DNA of 6,049 nucleotides. Origin: Thermoplasmata archaeon (GTDB lineage Archaea > Thermoplasmatota > Thermoplasmata > Thermoplasmatales > Thermoplasmataceae). The DNA is taken from the NCBI GenBank assembly GCA_021799755.1, contig JAJYZU010000070.1:1-6049 (forward strand), given 5' to 3'. The position numbers and the translations under genes were made by a program. The notes beneath the pieces were generated by a model. That model had not been told where the DNA came from, did not search any database, and saw nothing but the letters and a program-made list of their open reading frames with translations. This document shows, one piece after another, positions 1 through 6,049 of this stretch. The number at the start of each line of letters is the position of its first letter. Position 1 is the first letter of the stretch.

Positions 1-3
1 CTG

Positions 4-492
4 ATGGCGGAAAATGCAGCCTTAAAGCATTATAGAGATTTTCTGCCTGATAATTTCCAGTTGAATTACTATGAATTGACAATGTCAGTTCCACCCTCGT
101 CGATGGACATAAAAGGGGATTATGTAATAGCTACTTTTGGTAATAACTGGTACCGCGAGGTGAAATATCTCCTCAACGACAGTATTCAGGCTGTTTATTA
201 CGAAAAGAGCAACCTTATAAGCCGTCCCAAGGAGCTTACGTCAATTTCCGACAGAGACCGAATATATGAGATGACATTCAGGAATCCCCTTGTTTCATAC
301 GTTTTTGACAAGACGACAGAAAGACTGGTTGCAATACTTGGTATGCTTCACAGTATGATTGGAAAGAACTTCACCATGGGTGTGATTATACCAAGCTGTG
401 TGGCAAATGAGTTCCATGGCATAATTGCCGAACTTGCGGGCAGCTTCCCGGACTGGAAGATCAATCTCACACATGCATCAGAAATATTGTAG
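4..492 (+). CDS. Unrecognised protein, possibly the C-terminal part of a longer gene
   Basis: I do not recognise this 162-residue protein. It looks soluble: no signal peptide and no clear membrane segment. The middle is polar and aromatic-rich (NYYELTMSVPP, residues 21-31; FGNNWYREVKYLL, 45-57). The C-terminal half has hydrophobic helix/strand patches (ERLVAILGMLHSMIG, 106-120; MGVIIPSCVANEFHGIIAELAG, 125-146), which look like a folded alpha/beta or regulatory domain. The start is uncertain. The reading frame is open to the window edge (a CTG codon precedes the ATG), so position 4 may be an internal Met, and no promoter or ribosome binding site can be seen. The TAG stop directly abuts the TGA stop of the convergent ThyX-like gene, so there is no intergenic terminator; any transcription end must lie inside that gene's 3' end, where the plus strand is pyrimidine-rich (499-516). 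Coding status is supported by a long open frame without a better overlapping candidate. Function unknown. Confidence 0.75.
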   Translation: MAENAALKHYRDFLPDNFQLNYYELTMSVPPSSMDIKGDYVIATFGNNWYREVKYLLNDSIQAVYYEKSNLISRPKELTSISDRDRIYEMTFRNPLVSYVFDKTTERLVAILGMLHSMIGKNFTMGVIIPSCVANEFHGIIAELAGSFPDWKINLTHASEIL

Positions 493-2031
493 TCAAGCAG
501 TCTTCTTCTCCTTCCTGAATTCTGCAAATATTCTTCCAAGCGGATAATCTGCCTTGTCGACAAACCTGATGATGTTTGACAGATTAGGATGCACTGATTT
601 TATTGAGTCATAGATGGATACTGATATCTTTCTTAAATCGAAATGAGCCTGAGGCGTTGAGCGGAGTTCTGTCAGGTAACATGCCTCTTTTAGATTCACT
701 GATACGTAGATGGGATATCTGTATGCGTAAGGGATCACATATTGAGCAATTTCGTATCCATTCTTAACTGAAATTTTTTCCCATAAGACTGCCGCTCTTT
801 TCATGAGTAACGCGAAATCAGAAAGAAGTTTCTCATCGTTCCGGATTGATACGGGGGTGTCATACCCACTCTTTGGGTTCAAAAAGCCCCTTATTATGGT
901 CATCATCCGGTGTCTCTGAAGATCCCGGAAGGCACCGTAATTTGTTGAAATAAGAAACTGATAGACAGGTATCTCAAACTCCCTTGATGGTTTGTTCCTT
1001 CTGTTCTTGCGCATTTCAGCCTGTTTATTTATGAATGAAATCACATCATCCCTGTTCTGAACGGTCGATCCAGTTTTGATGGAATATGCCAGGCCAATCT
1101 TCTTTAACTCCTCTTCTTCGGTGTTAAATGAGATTAATTCAACAGTCTCATGTTTAATTGATTGGGGATCCGATCTGAATGATTCCCTTTCTCTTATATA
1201 ATCTATGTTTGATCTGCCATAATCAGAAGTGGCTGCATTGATTATCTCAGGGAATTCTGGAAGCAATTCATTATAGATGTCATCTGCCAACTTCAGGGCC
1301 TCAGTCAAACCGGTTGCTTTCATTTTCGATACTAGATGGATGAATCCCCTGGCATTGCCAGATATTCCTAAATTTGTGAGTGTTGAGGCGGGCAGTATAT
1401 ATCTGAGATCATCAAGAGCCCTTGCCCTGATAGCACTGCTATAGGCCTTCTGTGCGAGTTCTTTTTCGTTTCCGGATAGATCTGAATAGAGGGATTCCGA
1501 GGAATCTTTCCTGTTAGCGAATGCGCAATTCTCGATCGGGTTGGTTTTTTCAAAATATCCTGTAACTTGACCATAACATTCTGAGTAGAAGATGAAAAGA
1601 TCTCTGCAGAGATCATCATATTCCGTTTGCAGGTTTCCATTTATACCTGCCTCTTCCGCTGATAGAAAGAGATATCTTCCATTTACTTTTTTGTCATATC
1701 TTACATATCTGGAGGATTTTTCTATAAAAGATAGACCAATGCGGAGGTCTTCCATCATCTTACTTACAATGTTTGAAACACCCTGCACACCTACCTGAGC
1801 GAAAACCAGCTCCGCTACAGACTCATCGCCATAGTCGCTGAATACGCGCCTGTAGAACTCTGAACCCCTTTCTGAGTTTGCAGCGAATTCTTTGTCGTAT
1901 ACTTCTCTAATGTCAAGTGATGCAGTCCTGCTATACCTTGAAATAAGAGCACCGCGATCGATGCCCCTATCTGCAGTTATAAGGAAAACATTTCTATCCC
2001 GGTTGGAAAATGCTTCCCTCTTGTCGACCAT
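493..2031 (-). CDS. Two-domain ThyX-like (flavin-dependent thymidylate synthase fold) protein
   Basis: The 512 residues are about twice the usual ThyX length, and the protein contains two diverged ThyX-type domains (about 20-265 and 305-505). Classical ThyX makes dTMP from dUMP with FAD, NADPH and methylene-tetrahydrofolate, using the signature RHRxxSxNxxSxRY. The N-domain keeps the second half of it (S101, E104, S106, R108, Y109, within LSFIEKSSRYVRYD), but RHR reads LRI. It is preceded by the typical YGDESVAEL (67-75) and GVSN (84-87), and followed by LPASTLTN (213-220). The C-domain keeps RHR (373-375), preceded by FRDLQ, but lost the S..S.RY part; it retains the distal VNLKEA (445-450) and LRSTPQAHFDLR (456-467) block, whose last Arg contacts dUMP in ThyX. 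It is the last gene of a three-gene operon: its ATG follows the DUF35 stop directly (TAAATG), with only a weak purine-rich upstream stretch, so translational coupling is likely. The fold call is strong. True thymidylate synthase activity is doubtful; a repurposed flavoenzyme is possible. Confidence 0.88.
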   Translation of the reverse strand: MVDKREAFSNRDRNVFLITADRGIDRGALISRYSRTASLDIREVYDKEFAANSERGSEFYRRVFSDYGDESVAELVFAQVGVQGVSNIVSKMMEDLRIGLSFIEKSSRYVRYDKKVNGRYLFLSAEEAGINGNLQTEYDDLCRDLFIFYSECYGQVTGYFEKTNPIENCAFANRKDSSESLYSDLSGNEKELAQKAYSSAIRARALDDLRYILPASTLTNLGISGNARGFIHLVSKMKATGLTEALKLADDIYNELLPEFPEIINAATSDYGRSNIDYIRERESFRSDPQSIKHETVELISFNTEEEELKKIGLAYSIKTGSTVQNRDDVISFINKQAEMRKNRRNKPSREFEIPVYQFLISTNYGAFRDLQRHRMMTIIRGFLNPKSGYDTPVSIRNDEKLLSDFALLMKRAAVLWEKISVKNGYEIAQYVIPYAYRYPIYVSVNLKEACYLTELRSTPQAHFDLRKISVSIYDSIKSVHPNLSNIIRFVDKADYPLGRIFAEFRKEKKTA

Positions 2032-2559
2032 TTATCTCTTTTTCTTCCCTTTCTGGTCGTTCCTTCCTGAGCCCTTCGCTGGGACAAAGTAAACATCCGT
2101 TGGACTGAATGATTGCAGTCTCTTGAATTTTGCAACCACCGGCATGCCGACATACATATCATCCTGGTCTGCACCGATTAGCCTTGCCATGAAGAGAGAG
2201 TCAATGCCCTCAAATTCAACCATTATCAGGTTGAATGGGGTCTGTGGAAGGAAAACTTCGCTACCGAAATAACATGTTGTAAACGAATGTATTTTTCCGG
2301 TTTTTGGCAATTCTACCCATTCGGTTTCAGCGCCGCACATCATGCAGTGGGACCTTGGTGTTCCATATCCGTAACCACATTTTTTGCACCTGCTTCCCAT
2401 AAGTTTCTTCTTGCCAAGTGCCCTGAAGAACTCTGAGTCCTGTGCGAAACTGTGGATGTAGTCTATCGAATAGGTTGATTTGACAACAAGTGGATCTATC
2501 GTGTAAACTTCGGTCCCAGACTGACTCTCTTCCATCTTTGCATCAGGGTTTATCGTCAT
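2032..2559 (-). CDS. DUF35-type zinc-ribbon/OB-fold partner of thiolase-like enzyme
   Basis: This 175-residue protein has the DUF35 layout. An N-terminal helix region (about 30-52, IDYIHSFAQDSEFFRALGKKK) leads into a rubredoxin-like zinc ribbon with C58-x2-C61 and C72-x2-C75, then an OB-fold beta domain (about 80-160: VELPKTGKIHSFT, PFNLIMVEFEG, MARLIGA, VGMPVVAKFKR). The C-terminus is a short basic tail ending KGKKKR. DUF35 proteins do not usually act alone: in archaea they bridge acetoacetyl-CoA thiolase and HMG-CoA synthase, and in actinobacteria they pair with thiolase-fold aldolases, the OB fold probably shaping a CoA or acyl channel. Here the ATG overlaps the thiolase stop by four bases (ATGA) and has a strong Shine-Dalgarno GGAGGTG five bases upstream, which fixes the start over the later Met at residue 9. 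The partner is therefore most likely the upstream thiolase-like protein. No HMG-CoA synthase lies in the window. Confidence 0.92.
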   Translation of the reverse strand: MTINPDAKMEESQSGTEVYTIDPLVVKSTYSIDYIHSFAQDSEFFRALGKKKLMGSRCKKCGYGYGTPRSHCMMCGAETEWVELPKTGKIHSFTTCYFGSEVFLPQTPFNLIMVEFEGIDSLFMARLIGADQDDMYVGMPVVAKFKRLQSFSPTDVYFVPAKGSGRNDQKGKKKR

Positions 2560-3818
2560 TTTGGCACCTCCATGATGGATACTGTAACATAAGTTCCGGT
2601 GCCTGCATGACTATGTATCAGCCCGCGTTTTGGATTCTTCAGCTGAAGCTTGTCGTCCTTGAAGTGTTTCTTGATCGTCTTCTGGAGCTGCCAGAACATG
2701 AAGACACCCTGCATTATTCCAGTTGCACCAACCGGGTGACCGCATGCAAGCAGGCCGCCTGAGAAGTTGACAGGAATCTTACCATTAAGCTTGGGTTTGC
2801 CCTCATCTATGAACTGCCCACCCTCTCCATATTTGCACAGCCCAAGATCCTCATAGGTCTGAATCTCAGATGATGTGTATGCATCGTGCAGCTCGATTGC
2901 ATCAATCTCGTTCAGCGGATCTGTTATGCCAGCTGCCTCATAAGCTTCCTTTGCGGCAGATCTCCCGGCCCTGAATGAATGAATACCGGGATATTTCAGA
3001 TCTCTGTAGTCTGACGGCTTCTCATTTGGAAGAAGTGGAACCTTGCCAAACGGTCTGTCTGCGAGCCTCATAGTATCCGTCCCGGTACCGATACCTGTTA
3101 TTTCGATCGGATGCTTTGTTATCTCAAACGCCTTCTCTTCAGATGCGAGTATTGCAACGGCAGCACCATCAGACATTGCGCACACATCCAGCCTTGTCAG
3201 GGGATATGCTACCATCGGCGATTTCCTTACGTCCTCTACTGTAAGCTTCATCGGGCTCTGGGCATATGGATTGTGAAGGGCGTTCTCGTGATTCTTGATC
3301 GAGACTTTGGCAAGTTGCTCAACGGTGGTTCCGAATTCATGCATATGCCTGACAGCCATCATGGCATAATATCCCGTATAGAACCCGCCAACCGGATAAT
3401 CAAAGTTGGTATCACTTGCGAGAGCTATGAACTCATTTCCCTTCCATGTATTTACATGTGACATTGATTCAAAGCCGTAAACAACACAGGTGTCCATCCT
3501 TCCGGAAGCGACCTCCTCATAACCTGTCTGGAAGGAAAGGCCGCCAGTGGCTCCTCCGCCCTCGACCCTTTTGCTGGGTTTTGGTGTCAGACCCAGATAA
3601 TCCTGGACCATTATACCTGACATCAGCTGCCTCTGAAAATGATCTGAAAAATATGAAGCTACAGAACCGTCTATGTCGCTCAATTCAAGTCCAGCATCAT
3701 TCATAGCATAGTCGAATGCCTTCTTCACACGCAGTCTAAAATCCATTTCCGGAGTTGCTTTTGCGAATTTAGTTACACCGCCGGAAACCATGTATACCTT
3801 TCGTCCTTTATGCTTCAT
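2556..3818 (-). CDS. SCP-x/archaeal-type thiolase-like protein lacking the nucleophilic Cys
   Basis: The 420 residues match the archaeal acetyl-CoA acetyltransferase/SCP-x thiolase family along the whole length: VSGGVTKFAK near the N-terminus, sDGAAVAIL (216-224), IELHDAYT (308-315), YEDLGLCKYGEGG (322-334), NFSGGLLACGHPVGATG (351-367, catalytic-type His361) and HSHAGTGTYV (402-411) near the end. The expected nucleophile motif, VEAACASGG in active relatives, reads VEGGGATGG (85-93), so the Cys position is Gly89 (codon GGA). Without it, ordinary thiolysis or acetoacetyl-CoA synthesis through an acyl-enzyme is not expected. Cys-less thiolase-fold proteins paired with DUF35 include the retro-aldolases of steroid side-chain breakdown (Ltp2), so a C-C bond-making or -breaking role on an acyl-CoA is plausible but inferred. 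It is the first gene of the operon. The start at 3818 gives a leader of only about 3-6 bases from the TATA box at 3845-3853; the next Met is residue 10. Family call firm, reaction open. Confidence 0.93.
   Translation of the reverse strand: MKHKGRKVYMVSGGVTKFAKATPEMDFRLRVKKAFDYAMNDAGLELSDIDGSVASYFSDHFQRQLMSGIMVQDYLGLTPKPSKRVEGGGATGGLSFQTGYEEVASGRMDTCVVYGFESMSHVNTWKGNEFIALASDTNFDYPVGGFYTGYYAMMAVRHMHEFGTTVEQLAKVSIKNHENALHNPYAQSPMKLTVEDVRKSPMVAYPLTRLDVCAMSDGAAVAILASEEKAFEITKHPIEITGIGTGTDTMRLADRPFGKVPLLPNEKPSDYRDLKYPGIHSFRAGRSAAKEAYEAAGITDPLNEIDAIELHDAYTSSEIQTYEDLGLCKYGEGGQFIDEGKPKLNGKIPVNFSGGLLACGHPVGATGIMQGVFMFWQLQKTIKKHFKDDKLQLKNPKRGLIHSHAGTGTYVTVSIMEVPK
2565..2571 (-). promoter_or_regulatory. 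Strong Shine-Dalgarno (GGAGGTG) for the DUF35 gene
   Basis: Read on the minus strand, GGAGGTG lies five bases before the ATG at 2559, inside the 3' end of the thiolase gene. It matches the archaeal anti-Shine-Dalgarno very well. It decides the DUF35 start and shows that the internal gene of the operon can be initiated independently, in contrast to the leaderless-type first gene. Confidence 0.8.
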
Positions 3819-3844
3819 GAAAACCTTATGTAGATTCCTTTACT

Positions 3845-3853
3845 CTTTATAAT
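3845..3853 (-). promoter_or_regulatory. TATA box of the thiolase-DUF35-ThyX-like operon
   Basis: On the minus strand the sequence is ATTATAAAG, centred about 31 bases before the thiolase ATG. Archaeal transcription usually starts about 25-27 bases after the TATA centre, which puts the 5' end only a few bases before the ATG. The mRNA would be leaderless or nearly so. No better Shine-Dalgarno is seen before this ATG, in agreement. Confidence 0.55.
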
Positions 3854-3860
3854 ATTAATC

Positions 3861-3876
3861 CTGCAGTGAATTGCAG
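3861..3876. repeat. Imperfect inverted repeat between divergent promoters (possible operator)
   Basis: CTGCAGTGAATTGCAG has five-base arms CTGCA and TGCAG separated by six bases. It lies between the minus-strand TATA box (3845-3853) and the plus-strand TATA box (3881-3890), where one dimeric regulator could affect both the thiolase operon and the SDR gene. The operator role is inferred from position and symmetry only; arms this short can occur by chance. Confidence 0.35.
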
Positions 3877-3880
3877 CTAG

Positions 3881-3890
3881 AAAATTATAT
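3881..3890 (+). promoter_or_regulatory. TATA box of the SDR gene
   Basis: AAAATTATAT is centred about 28 bases before the ATG at 3915. This spacing predicts transcription starting at or next to the start codon, that is, a leaderless mRNA. No Shine-Dalgarno precedes the ATG (the upstream bases are CACTTGAC), in agreement. Confidence 0.55.
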
Positions 3891-3914
3891 CAGTTTACCG
3901 CGCATACACTTGAC

Positions 3915-4754
3915 ATGAAGGCTATTGTAATTGGCGGCTCGGGTTTTATTGGCAGCAATGTGGCCATGTCGCTTGACGCTGAGAAAGTCGTATACTACTC
4001 CAGGCATGAAAATGAAGTTCTCAATAAAAAGGGAGTTGAACATATTACTGGTAGCGTTGTTGAAACTGAAAAACTCCAGGAAGCTGTTAAGCAGTTCGAT
4101 ATGATAGTATATTCAGCTGGAATATTCAATGATCCACAGCAGACGCATGACGACGTAACATTGAAGGGAATAAAGGCAGTCGTTGATGTGATCAGGAAAC
4201 AGGATACTGGGCAGAAGCTGATATTTTTCTCTGCTATAAACACGGATTATGGAAGCTCCGAGTATTTCAGGTTAAGAAGAATTACAGAGGACAACGTGAA
4301 CCTGGCAAAGGAGAGCCTCACGATCAAATTATCAAACATTTTTGGAGAGGGAGATCGGATAACTGGCGAGATCTTGAAAATTGCGCGATCTCCAATACAC
4401 AAGATGCCGGCAGGTAAGTCCCTGGCGCCTGTCAGCATATCAGATCTTGTCAAAGTACTGCAGTCTTTCCTCGCATACAAGGGAACAATTTACGTCTGCT
4501 CAAAGGAGGATATTTCCTTAAGCAGTGCCGTGAATATTGCAAGGAATATAATTGGCGGTAGGCCTGCAAAGGGTGTGGAAAATAAAAGAAAAATACCGAA
4601 ACTTGTCTCAAAAATGGCTGAAAAGGTTGACATTCCTGATTGGAGACTTATGGATCTTACACTGAACTATTATAGGGAAAACACGTCTCTATACAGAAGC
4701 GTAAAAGATCCAATGAAATTTGTTGATTACCTGAAGGAAAAGGCTAAAGCATAA
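3915..4754 (+). CDS. Extended/atypical SDR family NAD(P)-binding protein, NDUFA9-like
   Basis: This 279-residue protein begins directly with a Rossmann beta strand and the dinucleotide motif GGSGFIG (7-13). It then has the second strand VVYYSR (25-30), VYSAGIF (65-71), strand KLIFFSAINT (101-110) and the active-site region with Tyr117. In the usual YxxxK pair the Lys is Arg here (YFRLR, 117-121), followed by the familiar E-N-V helix (125-128). LSNIFGEGDRI (139-149) and APVSISDLVKVL (171-182) match the NDUFA9-like/atypical SDR pattern (substrate-side loop with the P-V-s-DLv motif). Such proteins bind NAD(P) and act as oxidoreductases, quinone-biosynthesis helpers or complex I-associated factors; the substrate cannot be told here. 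It is divergent from the thiolase operon, with a leaderless-type start, and ends in an 11-base tail-to-tail overlap with the next gene. The start is well supported because the Rossmann strand begins at residue 2. Family call firm, specific role unknown. Confidence 0.9.
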   Translation: MKAIVIGGSGFIGSNVAMSLDAEKVVYYSRHENEVLNKKGVEHITGSVVETEKLQEAVKQFDMIVYSAGIFNDPQQTHDDVTLKGIKAVVDVIRKQDTGQKLIFFSAINTDYGSSEYFRLRRITEDNVNLAKESLTIKLSNIFGEGDRITGEILKIARSPIHKMPAGKSLAPVSISDLVKVLQSFLAYKGTIYVCSKEDISLSSAVNIARNIIGGRPAKGVENKRKIPKLVSKMAEKVDIPDWRLMDLTLNYYRENTSLYRSVKDPMKFVDYLKEKAKA

Positions 4755-5253
4755 CGTGACCAATTGCTTCTCTGTATGTATGCACACTGAGTTTTTTTAG
4801 ATATTTTATCGTGTAAGGGTCTATTTTATTCTCAAACTTTTCCATGTTTGAACATTTAAGAAGCATGGACGATGCATTTCTCATGTGAGCACTCGCCGCG
4901 AGAAGGTTCGCTGCTCTCTGATCCCCTGAACTCAGTTTTTCCTTGAGATCAAGCCATACTTCGTCGGCGTGGTTGAGCATCTTTCTATTCTGATCGCTGA
5001 GCCTGACATTCGGATCTTCTATTCCCGATACAATGGTATCAAGCATATCAAGCAGGGATCGCGTTTCGTTCAATTGCTTTCCAGTTGATACTGCAAGGCC
5101 TAGAAAGGATTCTGAGAGCCTCACCTCAGACAGGAATGAGAAATACGGGTGATCAAGGGGAAGGTCTGCATCTACAAGCTCACAATACTGCTCGTTCGGA
5201 TTTTCCTCGTCAGGCATAAAAGTGAATTGGCTGCACACTAAAAGAGTTTTCAC
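4744..5253 (-). CDS. Unrecognised mostly helical protein downstream of tRNA-Gln
   Basis: I do not recognise this 169-residue protein. It is soluble and probably largely alpha-helical from about residue 60 on (NETRSLLDMLDTIVSGI; DEVWLDLKEKLSS; AANLLAASAHMRNASSMLL), ending in a basic helix (YLKKLSVHTYREAI). Cys7, Cys24 and Cys134 are scattered, not a metal motif. The N-terminus is acidic and proline-rich. The start given is a GTG at 5253; an ATG at residue 13 (position 5217) is an alternative, and neither has a convincing ribosome binding site. The gene begins 34 bases after tRNA-Gln on the same strand, so it could be read through from the tRNA promoter. Its last 11 bases overlap the end of the SDR gene. 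A T-rich run on the minus strand (4594-4578, inside the SDR gene) could end its transcript. A HEPN-like helical fold crossed my mind, but no R-x4-6-H motif supports it. Confidence 0.7.
   Translation of the reverse strand: MKTLLVCSQFTFMPDEENPNEQYCELVDADLPLDHPYFSFLSEVRLSESFLGLAVSTGKQLNETRSLLDMLDTIVSGIEDPNVRLSDQNRKMLNHADEVWLDLKEKLSSGDQRAANLLAASAHMRNASSMLLKCSNMEKFENKIDPYTIKYLKKLSVHTYREAIGHVML
4792..4798 (+). terminator. Oligo-T terminator after the SDR gene
   Basis: Seven consecutive T on the plus strand begin 38 bases after the SDR stop, followed by a second T-rich patch (ATATTTTAT). Archaeal RNA polymerase terminates at such oligo-T runs without needing a hairpin. It lies inside the 3' coding end of the convergent 169-residue gene, where it encodes part of the KYLKKL stretch antisense, so it could also arise from Lys codons. 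Confidence 0.4.
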
Positions 5254-5287
5254 GTTTTCTCAATACATGAAATTCCTGAAAGGAAAA

Positions 5288-5360
5288 TAGCCCCGGGCAG
5301 ATTCGAACTGCCGTCGACGGGTCCAGAGCCCGTAATGCTTGGCCACTACACCACAGGGCT
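5288..5360 (-). tRNA. tRNA-Gln (anticodon CUG)
   Basis: Read on the minus strand, all cloverleaf parts are present: acceptor AGCCCTG paired with CGGGGCT (one T-G), T8, D-arm GTGT/GCAT with AGTGGCCAA loop, anticodon stem ACGGG/CCCGT with loop CTCTGGA (anticodon CUG, G37), and T-arm GGCAG-TTCGAAT-CTGCC. The first pair is A-T, with discriminator A at 5288. The coordinates include the discriminator. CCA is not encoded (TTT follows), so it is added by the nucleotidyltransferase. There is no intron at the usual 37/38 site. The weakly T-rich sequence just after it (TTTTCCTTT, 5287-5279) may act as a terminator, though the next gene starts only 34 bases away. It reads CAG codons; Gln-tRNA in archaea is normally made by misacylation with Glu followed by GatDE amidation. 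Confidence 0.96.
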
Positions 5361-5392
5361 TTTAGGTGTGGCTACGCCATCCTTTCTGCTGG

Positions 5393-5400
5393 AATACTTA
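5393..5400 (-). promoter_or_regulatory. Possible TATA box of tRNA-Gln
   Basis: TAAGTATT on the minus strand is centred about 36 bases before the first tRNA base, predicting a 5' leader of about 9 bases for RNase P removal. The match to the archaeal TATA consensus is only fair; TTAATTAG a little further upstream (around 5410) is an alternative that would give a longer leader. Confidence 0.35.
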
Positions 5401-5453
5401 GAACCCTAATTAATCTTACATGCAAAATTTTCCATGGTAAATAACGGAATCTG

Positions 5454-5460
5454 TTTTTTT
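5454..5460 (+). other. Isolated T7 run in the intergenic region
   Basis: Seven T on the plus strand stand between the tRNA (minus strand) and the next plus-strand gene. No plus-strand gene ends upstream of it, so it is either part of AT-rich spacer or a terminator for an unseen short plus-strand transcript crossing 5361-5453. I see no C/D box or H/ACA signature there. Confidence 0.2.
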
Positions 5461-5492
5461 ATGCGCTATTCTATGCTTTTGTTAGAAGTATT

Positions 5493-5503
5493 GATTCTGA
5501 ATC
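5493..5503. repeat. GATTC-T-GAATC palindrome with flanking half-site copies
   Basis: A perfect 11-base palindrome (five-base arms, one-base centre). The same half site occurs nearby as GAATCTG (5447-5453) and CAGATTC (5519-5525), which are themselves inverted copies of each other. The group lies directly upstream of the TATA box at 5526-5537, where a regulator of the next gene could bind. Function is inferred from position only. Confidence 0.3.
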
Positions 5504-5525
5504 TAAGAATAAAATAGCAGATTCG

Positions 5526-5537
5526 TTAAATTATTTA
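5526..5537 (+). promoter_or_regulatory. TATA box upstream of the 134-residue protein
   Basis: TTAAATTATTTA is centred about 28 bases before the in-frame GTG at 5560 but only about 10 before the GTG at 5542. If this box is used with normal archaeal spacing, the mRNA would start at about 5558-5560, favouring the downstream GTG as a leaderless start. Confidence 0.45.
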
Positions 5538-5541
5538 GGGT

Positions 5542-5946
5542 GTGAACCTTCATGAAGATGTGAAGAACTGGAGCGGACACATCATATTTCCAAGCAATTT
5601 CCAGTGGAAGGAACTTGAAAAAGTGTTTCCAGAGATCTGGGAGATTTTTTCCAAGGATGCAAGGCCAACGGTAGAGGAAGTTCAGTATGACCAGGCTAAT
5701 CTGTATCTCAACCTGGAGGAGATAAGAAACAATAAGAAACCCTTTGGATACATCAAAGAAGGGGCAAAAAACAGGTTACTTTTTCCGATGGACAGGAAGG
5801 AGATGATAATATATAGGGGGCTCCTTTCAGAGAACATCAGGGACCTGACAGAAGAGGTCGCCAAAATACTGAGAAATGCAAAAATAAAGTTCACAATTGA
5901 ATACGACAAAATGCTTCTGCAGGAAATCCGGGCAAGGCGCAAGTAA
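5542..5946 (+). CDS. Unrecognised small charged protein
   Basis: I do not recognise this protein of 134 residues from the first GTG. It is strongly charged and soluble, with no Cys and no membrane segment. The order is an aromatic-rich N-terminus (KNWSGHIIFPSNFQWKELEK), an FPEIWEIF helix (29-36), an acidic stretch around EEVQYDQANLYLNLEEIR (45-62), FGYIKEGAKNRLLFP (68-82), then two amphipathic helices ending in the basic tail EIRARRK. The coding frame is convincing, as it runs cleanly to TAA at 5944-5946. The start is uncertain: GTG at 5542 is the longest option, but a GTG at 5560 (residue 7) has the right distance from the TATA box for leaderless translation and would leave 128 residues. Neither has a well-placed Shine-Dalgarno. 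The next gene follows with its own promoter, so this is probably a single-gene transcript. It might be an information-processing or nucleic-acid accessory protein judging from the basic tail, but that is only a guess. Confidence 0.75.
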   Translation: MNLHEDVKNWSGHIIFPSNFQWKELEKVFPEIWEIFSKDARPTVEEVQYDQANLYLNLEEIRNNKKPFGYIKEGAKNRLLFPMDRKEMIIYRGLLSENIRDLTEEVAKILRNAKIKFTIEYDKMLLQEIRARRK

Positions 5947-5956
5947 CTTTCAAGAA

Positions 5957-5965
5957 TAATTATAT
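5957..5965 (+). promoter_or_regulatory. TATA box of the gene starting at 5988
   Basis: TAATTATAT is centred about 26-27 bases before the ATG at 5988, again the spacing of a leaderless archaeal mRNA. A GGAGAG just before the ATG (5982-5987) would be too close to act as a ribosome binding site. Confidence 0.5.
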
Positions 5966-5987
5966 CTAATCTTGCGATACCGGAGAG

Positions 5988-6049
5988 ATGGTCAGCAGGA
6001 TAAAGGTAGTCAATGATGTGGGAGAACTTGTTTCCATTTTCCATGCTGC
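5988..6049 (+). CDS. 5' end of a gene running off the window
   Basis: Only 20 complete codons are visible, beginning MVSRIKVVND and continuing VGELVSIFHA, with no stop before the window end. Support comes from the TATA box 26-27 bases upstream, the position 41 bases after the previous stop on the same strand, and the ordinary composition of the peptide. Too little is present to name a family. Confidence 0.55.
   Translation, partial: MVSRIKVVNDVGELVSIFHA

Follow-up and report, generated by a model that had tools for sequence, protein, structure and literature searches.

A DUF35-paired, thiolase-like protein family of Thermoplasmata and bacteria that lacks the nucleophilic cysteine and may carry out C-C bond chemistry beside a coenzyme A thioester

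The window studied here is a whole stretch of 6,049 nucleotides from a Thermoplasmata archaeon (contig JAJYZU010000070.1 of assembly GCA_021799755.1, positions 1 to 6,049 of the forward strand). It carries a gene for a thiolase-like protein, followed directly by a gene for a DUF35 protein. The thiolase-like protein has a glycine, Gly89, in place of the nucleophilic cysteine, and we found the same glycine throughout its family. It is, with high confidence, not an ordinary thiolase. The features of the pair are as follows, with positions in the window.

2556..3818, minus strand: the cysteine-less thiolase-fold protein, an open reading frame of 420 amino acids (NCBIfam NF004982, PRK06365)
3540..3566, minus strand: VEGGGATGG, residues 85-93, which contains Gly89, the nucleophile column
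3554-3552, minus strand: GGA, the codon of Gly89, read from the open reading frame
2877..2888, minus strand: HDAY, residues 311-314, which includes His311, Ala313 and Tyr314
2718..2741, minus strand: GHPVGATG, residues 360-367, which includes His361
2607..2609, minus strand: His404 of the SHAGTG loop, position counted from the start of the open reading frame at 3818
2032..2559, minus strand: the putative DUF35 partner, a zinc ribbon plus OB fold (PF01796 at 47.6 bits, PF12172 at 28 bits; CKKC...CMMC in the translation), whose start shares four bases with the stop of the thiolase-like gene

Against NF004982 the window protein reaches 803.2 bits, above the curated cut-off of 695, and is thus a member of this family, whose model (PRK06365.1, 'thiolase domain-containing protein') carries no function. 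It has the thiolase fold, and according to Foldseek its overall fold is closest to that of archaeal thiolases. In the thiolases of M. thermolithotrophicus (6esq) and P. furiosus (7yvy) and in BbsB (7pxp), the residues aligned with Gly89 are Cys85, Cys83 and Cys85, respectively. Together with the reading of the open reading frame, this confirms the replacement of the nucleophilic cysteine that had been proposed in an initial annotation made from the DNA alone. Glycine is also present in three copies from metagenome-assembled genomes (MAGs) that are 95% identical to the window protein (L001-L003), in 120/120 of its closest homologues (the best 120 of 5674) and in all 60 NF004982 matches from genome searches, which were picked without the motif. 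Because all of these proteins carry glycine, Gly89 is a family trait and not a read error; the initial annotation had already argued against a single read error from the GGA codon, which we confirmed. The 60 proteins (19 + 28 + 13, with at least 10 of the first 47 repeating proteins among loci L001-L080) were obtained at E<=1e-120 from 19 of 198 genomes of one bacterial phylum, 28 of 194 genomes of the Thermoplasmata phylum, 4 of 249 and 9 of 201. We also assembled 222 distinct family rows, consisting of the 120 closest homologues, the window protein and 101 locus rows chosen by a GG-x-x-G pattern. Glycine is found in 222/222 of them, the locus rows there being motif-selected, and this answers the check on orthologues that had been suggested. 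No family row has a cysteine in the nucleophile column, where SCP2 and T2 thiolases have the cysteine of the CxS loop.

The initial annotation described the protein as archaeal. It is indeed present in Thermoplasmata, but this label is too narrow, as there are bacterial relatives at 70-77% identity (Chloroflexi, Bacillota, Nitrospirae and other bacterial records), and a bacterial member, from locus L053, also exceeds the NF004982 cut-off with 723.5 bits. In one-genome-per-species data, identity runs from 95% down to 70% over the best 80 of 225 loci, which belong to Thermoplasmata, Chloroflexi, Bacillota, Nitrospirae, Deltaproteobacteria, Planctomycetota and candidate phyla. A quick 50-row tree places the family in one clade with 99% support in the SH-like approximate likelihood ratio test (SH-aLRT), and the cysteine thiolases, the serine and threonine groups and the steroid aldolases fall outside it. 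One member, L119, reads GGSTGG and is labelled 'other' in that tree. The steroid aldolases form a supported clade of their own, and a sister relationship between them and the family has a support of only 80. A related branch (L120-L129) lies under the NF004982 cut-off, with 488-515 bits, but has GGATGG, HDAF and SHAG. We also observed a basal relative (L106:694-1911, plus strand) with GGATGA and Gly89 that has Ile in the His404 column. Two further groups of thiolase-like proteins without the cysteine were seen, one in Thermoplasmata (L089, L090, L101, L102) whose nucleophile column holds Ser or Thr and which has HDSY or NDSY, and KGNP replacing GHP, and another (L087, L088, L100) with Ser and HDM that shares a clade with ST0096 (4yzo). 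In the source records, proteins of the family from Thermoplasma acidophilum to Chloroflexi are named thiolase domain protein or acetyl-CoA acetyltransferase. The family cannot use thiolase chemistry as it is known, and metabolic models that count it as thiolase would be wrong.

The other active-site motifs lie where the initial annotation had placed them, with HDAY at 311-314, His361 within GHPVGATG and Cys359 just before GHP. His361, the histidine of the thiolase GHP motif, is present in 221/221 readable family rows, His404 in 218/219 and Asp312 in 222/222. Position 311 is His in 213 and Tyr in 9 of the 222 rows, and position 313 is Ala in 214 and Ser in 8. The second catalytic cysteine (HDCF in SCP2 thiolases, CxG in T2 thiolases) is also missing, with Ala313 and His404 standing instead. 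A sequence-only alignment that includes three T2 thiolases encoded at the loci puts His404 in the column of the CxG cysteine. A histidine in this column occurs in neither steroid aldolase nor in any of the 8 cysteine thiolases in the set; BbsB has one that sits one or two residues earlier, within an ambiguously aligned loop. The thiolase fold would place His311 near His361 and His404 in space. The alignments thus point to a rebuilt site of Gly89, His311, His361 and His404, in which the family keeps both thiolase histidines and adds His404, a residue that had escaped the initial annotation and is new in this analysis. Nine rows, including a Thermoplasmata subgroup (L150, L161-L164), have an aldolase-like YDAY or YDSY motif, with His361 and His404 unchanged. 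HDAF also occurs in BbsB and in the P. furiosus thiolase, so we dropped the idea that Ala313 marks a loss of catalysis. The family-specific residues further include Asn128, Tyr147 and Tyr150. Residues 124-145 (TWKGNEFIALASDTNFDYPVGG) are nearly invariant in the family, yet have the lowest confidence in the predicted structure; this stretch is possibly a partner contact or a cover of the active site.

One could still think of a thiolase that uses another cysteine, or of a non-covalent enzyme, either a thiolase with direct attack by coenzyme A (CoA) or a Claisen condensing enzyme. In favor of this, the protein retains the GHP and HDx motifs, and its fold is nearest to archaeal thiolases. The window protein has four cysteines (111, 213, 328 and 359, the last with codon TGC), and none of them falls in the nucleophile column; a cysteine placed there would, according to the initial annotation, have refuted its reading. 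Cys213 is the only family-wide one (221/222 rows), but Ltp2 also has Cys in that column, and its named catalytic residues are tyrosines (PMC12329534). Cys328 is replaced by Arg or Ala in 16/222 rows, and position 359 is Cys in 132 and another residue in 89 of 221 readable rows, so that we regard this explanation as unlikely. The same numbers remove Cys359 from the candidate catalytic residues proposed earlier. Tyr314, the other candidate, is Tyr in 192 and Phe in 30 of the 222 rows. It aligns with Tyr305 of the steroid aldolase Sal (chain numbers minus 24 give the numbering of the paper), whose mutation Y305F lowered kcat only 7.6-fold (PMC12329534).

In 110/123 loci the next gene downstream, in the same orientation, is the DUF35 gene, namely, in 62/65 on the Thermoplasmata side and 48/58 of the others. 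Of the 13 loci without a DUF35 match, four break off no more than 600 bases from the gene, and two more have DUF35-like genes by clustering. Ltp2 and Sal, two steroid aldolases, likewise have glycine in the aligned column; together with the family-wide loss of the nucleophile and the conserved DUF35 gene, this makes C-C bond chemistry without a cysteine the best reading. From the observed losses and replacements of residues, the fold, the gene pairing and the neighbors, we infer with moderate confidence that the two proteins act as a complex that forms or cleaves a C-C bond next to a CoA thioester, with no covalent acyl-cysteine, as an aldolase or retro-aldolase for short branched 3-hydroxyacyl-CoAs. 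These substrates may come from the breakdown of branched-chain amino acids such as leucine. The initial annotation had suggested C-C bond chemistry on a CoA thioester after a loss of cysteine like that in Ltp2. This idea holds up as the best reading, but the residues then proposed to carry it out do not. In the mechanism that we propose, the backbone NH of Gly89 and the loop around residue 406 would hold the beta oxygen, as suggested for Gly89 of Sal, the backbone amide of which was modelled beside the beta-hydroxyl (PMC12329534). His361 with His311 would hold the thioester enolate oxygen, and His404 with His311 would shuttle protons. Cleavage of the bond would then give a carbonyl product and a shorter acyl-CoA. 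The DUF35 protein would be a fixed partner that shapes the site.

The remaining features of the window are the following.

493-2031, minus strand: a 512-residue protein with two Thy1/ThyX-like stretches (64.6 bits, against a ThyX equivalog cut-off of 87.9)
5288-5360, minus strand: tRNA-Gln (CTG)

A relative of the ThyX-like protein occurs near the thiolase/DUF35 pair in 32/65 Thermoplasmata-side loci. For the 58 loci not on the Thermoplasmata side, neighbors were counted by tblastn with chosen references, which covers only genes on the reference list and leaves out hydratases. Within 7 kb there is an acyl-CoA dehydrogenase in 35 loci, a B12-binding mutase subunit in 18, a mutase large subunit in 13, a CoA-transferase in 8, a T2 thiolase in 7, an acyl-CoA synthetase of the L055 type in 7 and MeaB in 6. 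In L134-L136 a single gene run holds a T2 thiolase, a 3-hydroxyacyl-CoA dehydrogenase, two acyl-CoA dehydrogenases, a mutase, the B12 subunit, the cysteine-less thiolase, DUF35, another acyl-CoA dehydrogenase, MeaB and two CoA-transferase subunits; L133 has most of this run, and L134 also has a cobalamin adenosyltransferase. Genes for a VorB-type 2-oxoacid oxidoreductase and a MerR-like regulator lie upstream in L214. A record titled Undinarchaeales (L047:5974-10709) has the thiolase-like protein, DUF35, an acyl-CoA dehydrogenase, EtfB and EtfA in a row; possibly, it is misbinned or the gene run was transferred. The mutase in L053 scores best with models named for methylmalonyl-CoA mutase. We had considered the upstream mutase as such an enzyme and dropped this because 7/7 mutases (L049, L053, L054, L056, L065, L073, L074) have Phe and Gln in the columns of Tyr89 and Arg207, which we take to be the carboxylate-side residues of methylmalonyl-CoA mutase. 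Phe80 and Gln198 are presumably the pattern of isobutyryl-CoA mutase, and judged by these residues the mutases are likely misnamed acyl-CoA mutases. Because of these residues and the dehydrogenase and mutase neighbors, the bacterial gene setting looks like branched short-chain acyl-CoA oxidation.

The mutases also bear on a decarboxylase of malonyl-type CoA thioesters, another unlikely explanation, in which loss of the cysteine would leave two histidines that stabilize the enolate after CO2 departs. The active-site histidines are retained, and 13/58 bacterial-side loci have a member of the methylmalonyl-CoA mutase family within 7 kb, but as the Tyr89/Arg207 pair is absent this neighbor is probably no maker of methylmalonyl-CoA. 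KSQ-type decarboxylases have Gln for the active-site Cys, with two His, whereas the window protein has Gly, with His311, His361 and His404. Among 11 archaeal genomes that carry the gene, not one encodes a PF01039 carboxyltransferase that could supply malonyl- or methylmalonyl-CoA. The thiolase-like protein TbSLP decarboxylates malonyl-CoA very slowly and Sal was not observed to do so (PMC12329534).

The more specific proposal is that the pair is a 3-hydroxyisovaleryl-CoA lyase that forms acetone and acetyl-CoA at a three-histidine site, possibly with a bound metal, in a leucine route of Thermoplasmata free of carboxylase and biotin. We put this forward tentatively, as one possibility within the aldolase reading. 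In such a route, isovaleryl-CoA from leucine would be dehydrogenated to 3-methylcrotonyl-CoA and hydrated to 3-hydroxyisovaleryl-CoA, which the lyase would split; anaerobic bacteria might use it too. As 3-hydroxyisovaleryl-CoA is a tertiary alcohol, a 3-hydroxyacyl-CoA dehydrogenase cannot make a 3-oxo compound of it and a thiolase is of no use, but a retro-aldolase could cleave it. Ltp2 reportedly handles the equivalent problem for a tertiary C17 alcohol. Seven loci with the YDAY or YDSY motif have known neighbors, and five of them (L187-L190, L200; not L059 and L060) have an isovaleryl-type dehydrogenase directly upstream, with the matched stretch of our gene beginning 9-35 bases past that of the dehydrogenase. 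These dehydrogenases read IGAGTNEI and lack the usual Glu. The five best solved relatives of the L188 dehydrogenase are all isovaleryl-CoA dehydrogenases (337 to 312 bits; next, 285), and it has an aligned Glu that we take to be the one of the isovaleryl type; its identity to the dehydrogenases of the remaining four loci is 70-88%. The 11 archaeal genomes, which include that of L001, are ten of Thermoplasmata or their phylum and one uncultured archaeon (L023). All 11 have an isovaleryl-type dehydrogenase at 56-100% identity (other dehydrogenases there, 29-39%), with AGTxEI in ten and GGTTEI in one. The PF01039 (biotin) carboxyltransferase was found in 0/11 (control, detected in 12/14 genomes), and 3-hydroxy-3-methylglutaryl-CoA (HMG-CoA) lyase was over its cut-off in 0/11, with a model that exceeds this cut-off in just 3/14 controls; weaker relatives, at 73 bits or less, occur in 8/11. 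As carboxyltransferase and HMG-CoA lyase were not found, the textbook leucine route, which needs 3-methylcrotonyl-CoA carboxylase and HMG-CoA lyase, looks closed to those archaea. Over 194 genomes of the Thermoplasmata phylum, the gene is present in 28, the isovaleryl-type dehydrogenase in 27 and both in 24. The carboxyltransferase is present in all 3 genomes with the dehydrogenase only and absent in 19 of the 24 with both genes. Four genomes (G233, G254, G255, G325) have the gene without the dehydrogenase, two with and two without the carboxyltransferase. A control paralogue (Ser/Thr-group relatives at E<=1e-60) occurs in 162/194 genomes and shows no such link.

Several results weigh against this proposal. 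The 19 genomes that have both genes and no carboxyltransferase also take the first 19 places for another thiolase-like paralogue in the Ser/Thr-group search and look like one lineage, so the profile reflects about two events. The co-occurrence (24/28 and 24/27) thus rests on about two lineages, and we do not rely on its Fisher values (2e-23 and 0.019). The window-type gene is rarely beside the isovaleryl-type dehydrogenase (L005 and L025, at 3.4-3.6 kb). A carboxyltransferase-domain gene is present in 16/16 bacterial-side genomes (HMG-CoA lyase over cut-off in 2/16), and the argument from a missing carboxylase is therefore valid only for the archaea. In all neighboring bacterial-side acyl-CoA dehydrogenases whose motif was read, it is EGT or EGS, with the usual Glu, and the L134 dehydrogenase is closest in PDB to 1ws9, not to an isovaleryl enzyme, so the substrate may differ across the family.

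Alternatively, the protein might be a CoA enzyme without C-C chemistry, a hydratase, dehydratase or isomerase of enoyl-CoAs such as 3-methylcrotonyl-CoA. The dehydrogenase is a common neighbor (35/58), the histidines could add water, and no hydratase was recognized among the neighbors scanned, although no systematic search for one was made. The crotonase-family genes in 11/11 archaeal genomes may already cover this step and we know of no hydratase with the thiolase fold, which makes this explanation somewhat less probable still than the decarboxylase. Least probable is a thiolase that has lost all catalysis and binds CoA as a scaffold or regulator, either for the DUF35 protein or for the neighboring dehydrogenase or mutase: the nucleophile is lost and DUF35 proteins are scaffolds in known complexes (PMC6996347), but 70-77% identity to bacterial relatives and the retention of His361 (221/221) and His404 (218/219) are more than a scaffold seems to need, and the site gained a family-specific histidine instead of decaying.

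No publication on the NF004982 family or on a 3-hydroxyisovaleryl-CoA lyase was found in the open-access library searched (subscription papers were outside the search). If the pair is such a lyase, it fills the gap in the leucine route of the eleven archaeal genomes with the isovaleryl-type dehydrogenase, and a C-C lyase for small substrates would in reverse join acetone and acetyl-CoA.

Among known systems, the top Foldseek match is the archaeal acetoacetyl-CoA thiolase of the thiolase/HMG-CoA synthase/DUF35 complex (6esq, 6et9), with 34% identity over the alignment. Both go with a DUF35 protein, in the window a putative partner, and have the HDxF-type and GHP loops, but the thiolase retains Cys85 and HDCF, its residue in the His404 column is Val, and an HMG-CoA synthase, as in that complex, was not recognized in the window. 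Benzoylsuccinyl-CoA thiolase BbsAB (7pxp) is also a thiolase and DUF35 pair with HDAF, but it keeps Cys85 and its 404 loop differs. ST0096 of Sulfolobus tokodaii (4yzo) is an archaeal thiolase-like protein that also lacks the nucleophilic cysteine; unlike the window protein, it has Ser76, HDMA and Met in the 404 column, and it lies outside the clade. The steroid aldolases Ltp2-ChsH2 (6ok1) and Sal-Shy (9myr) share the thiolase fold with the window protein, have a DUF35 partner, which in the window is a putative one from the gene pair, and are active on CoA thioesters. Gly83 of Ltp2 and Gly89 of Sal align with Gly89 of the window protein, and this glycine is common to both aldolases and the family. 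The catalytic residues differ. His311 lies on the base tyrosine (Tyr294 in Ltp2, Tyr302 in Sal), so the YDxF/Y motif is absent from the window protein, Ala313 lies on His296 and Cys304, and His361 lies on Tyr344 and Gln352, respectively. The family also has the extra His404 and a separate clade, and the window DUF35 protein is without a hydratase domain. Should the family act as an aldolase, its active site would be a new solution within a superfamily in which we found two worked-out aldolases, both of them steroid aldolases.
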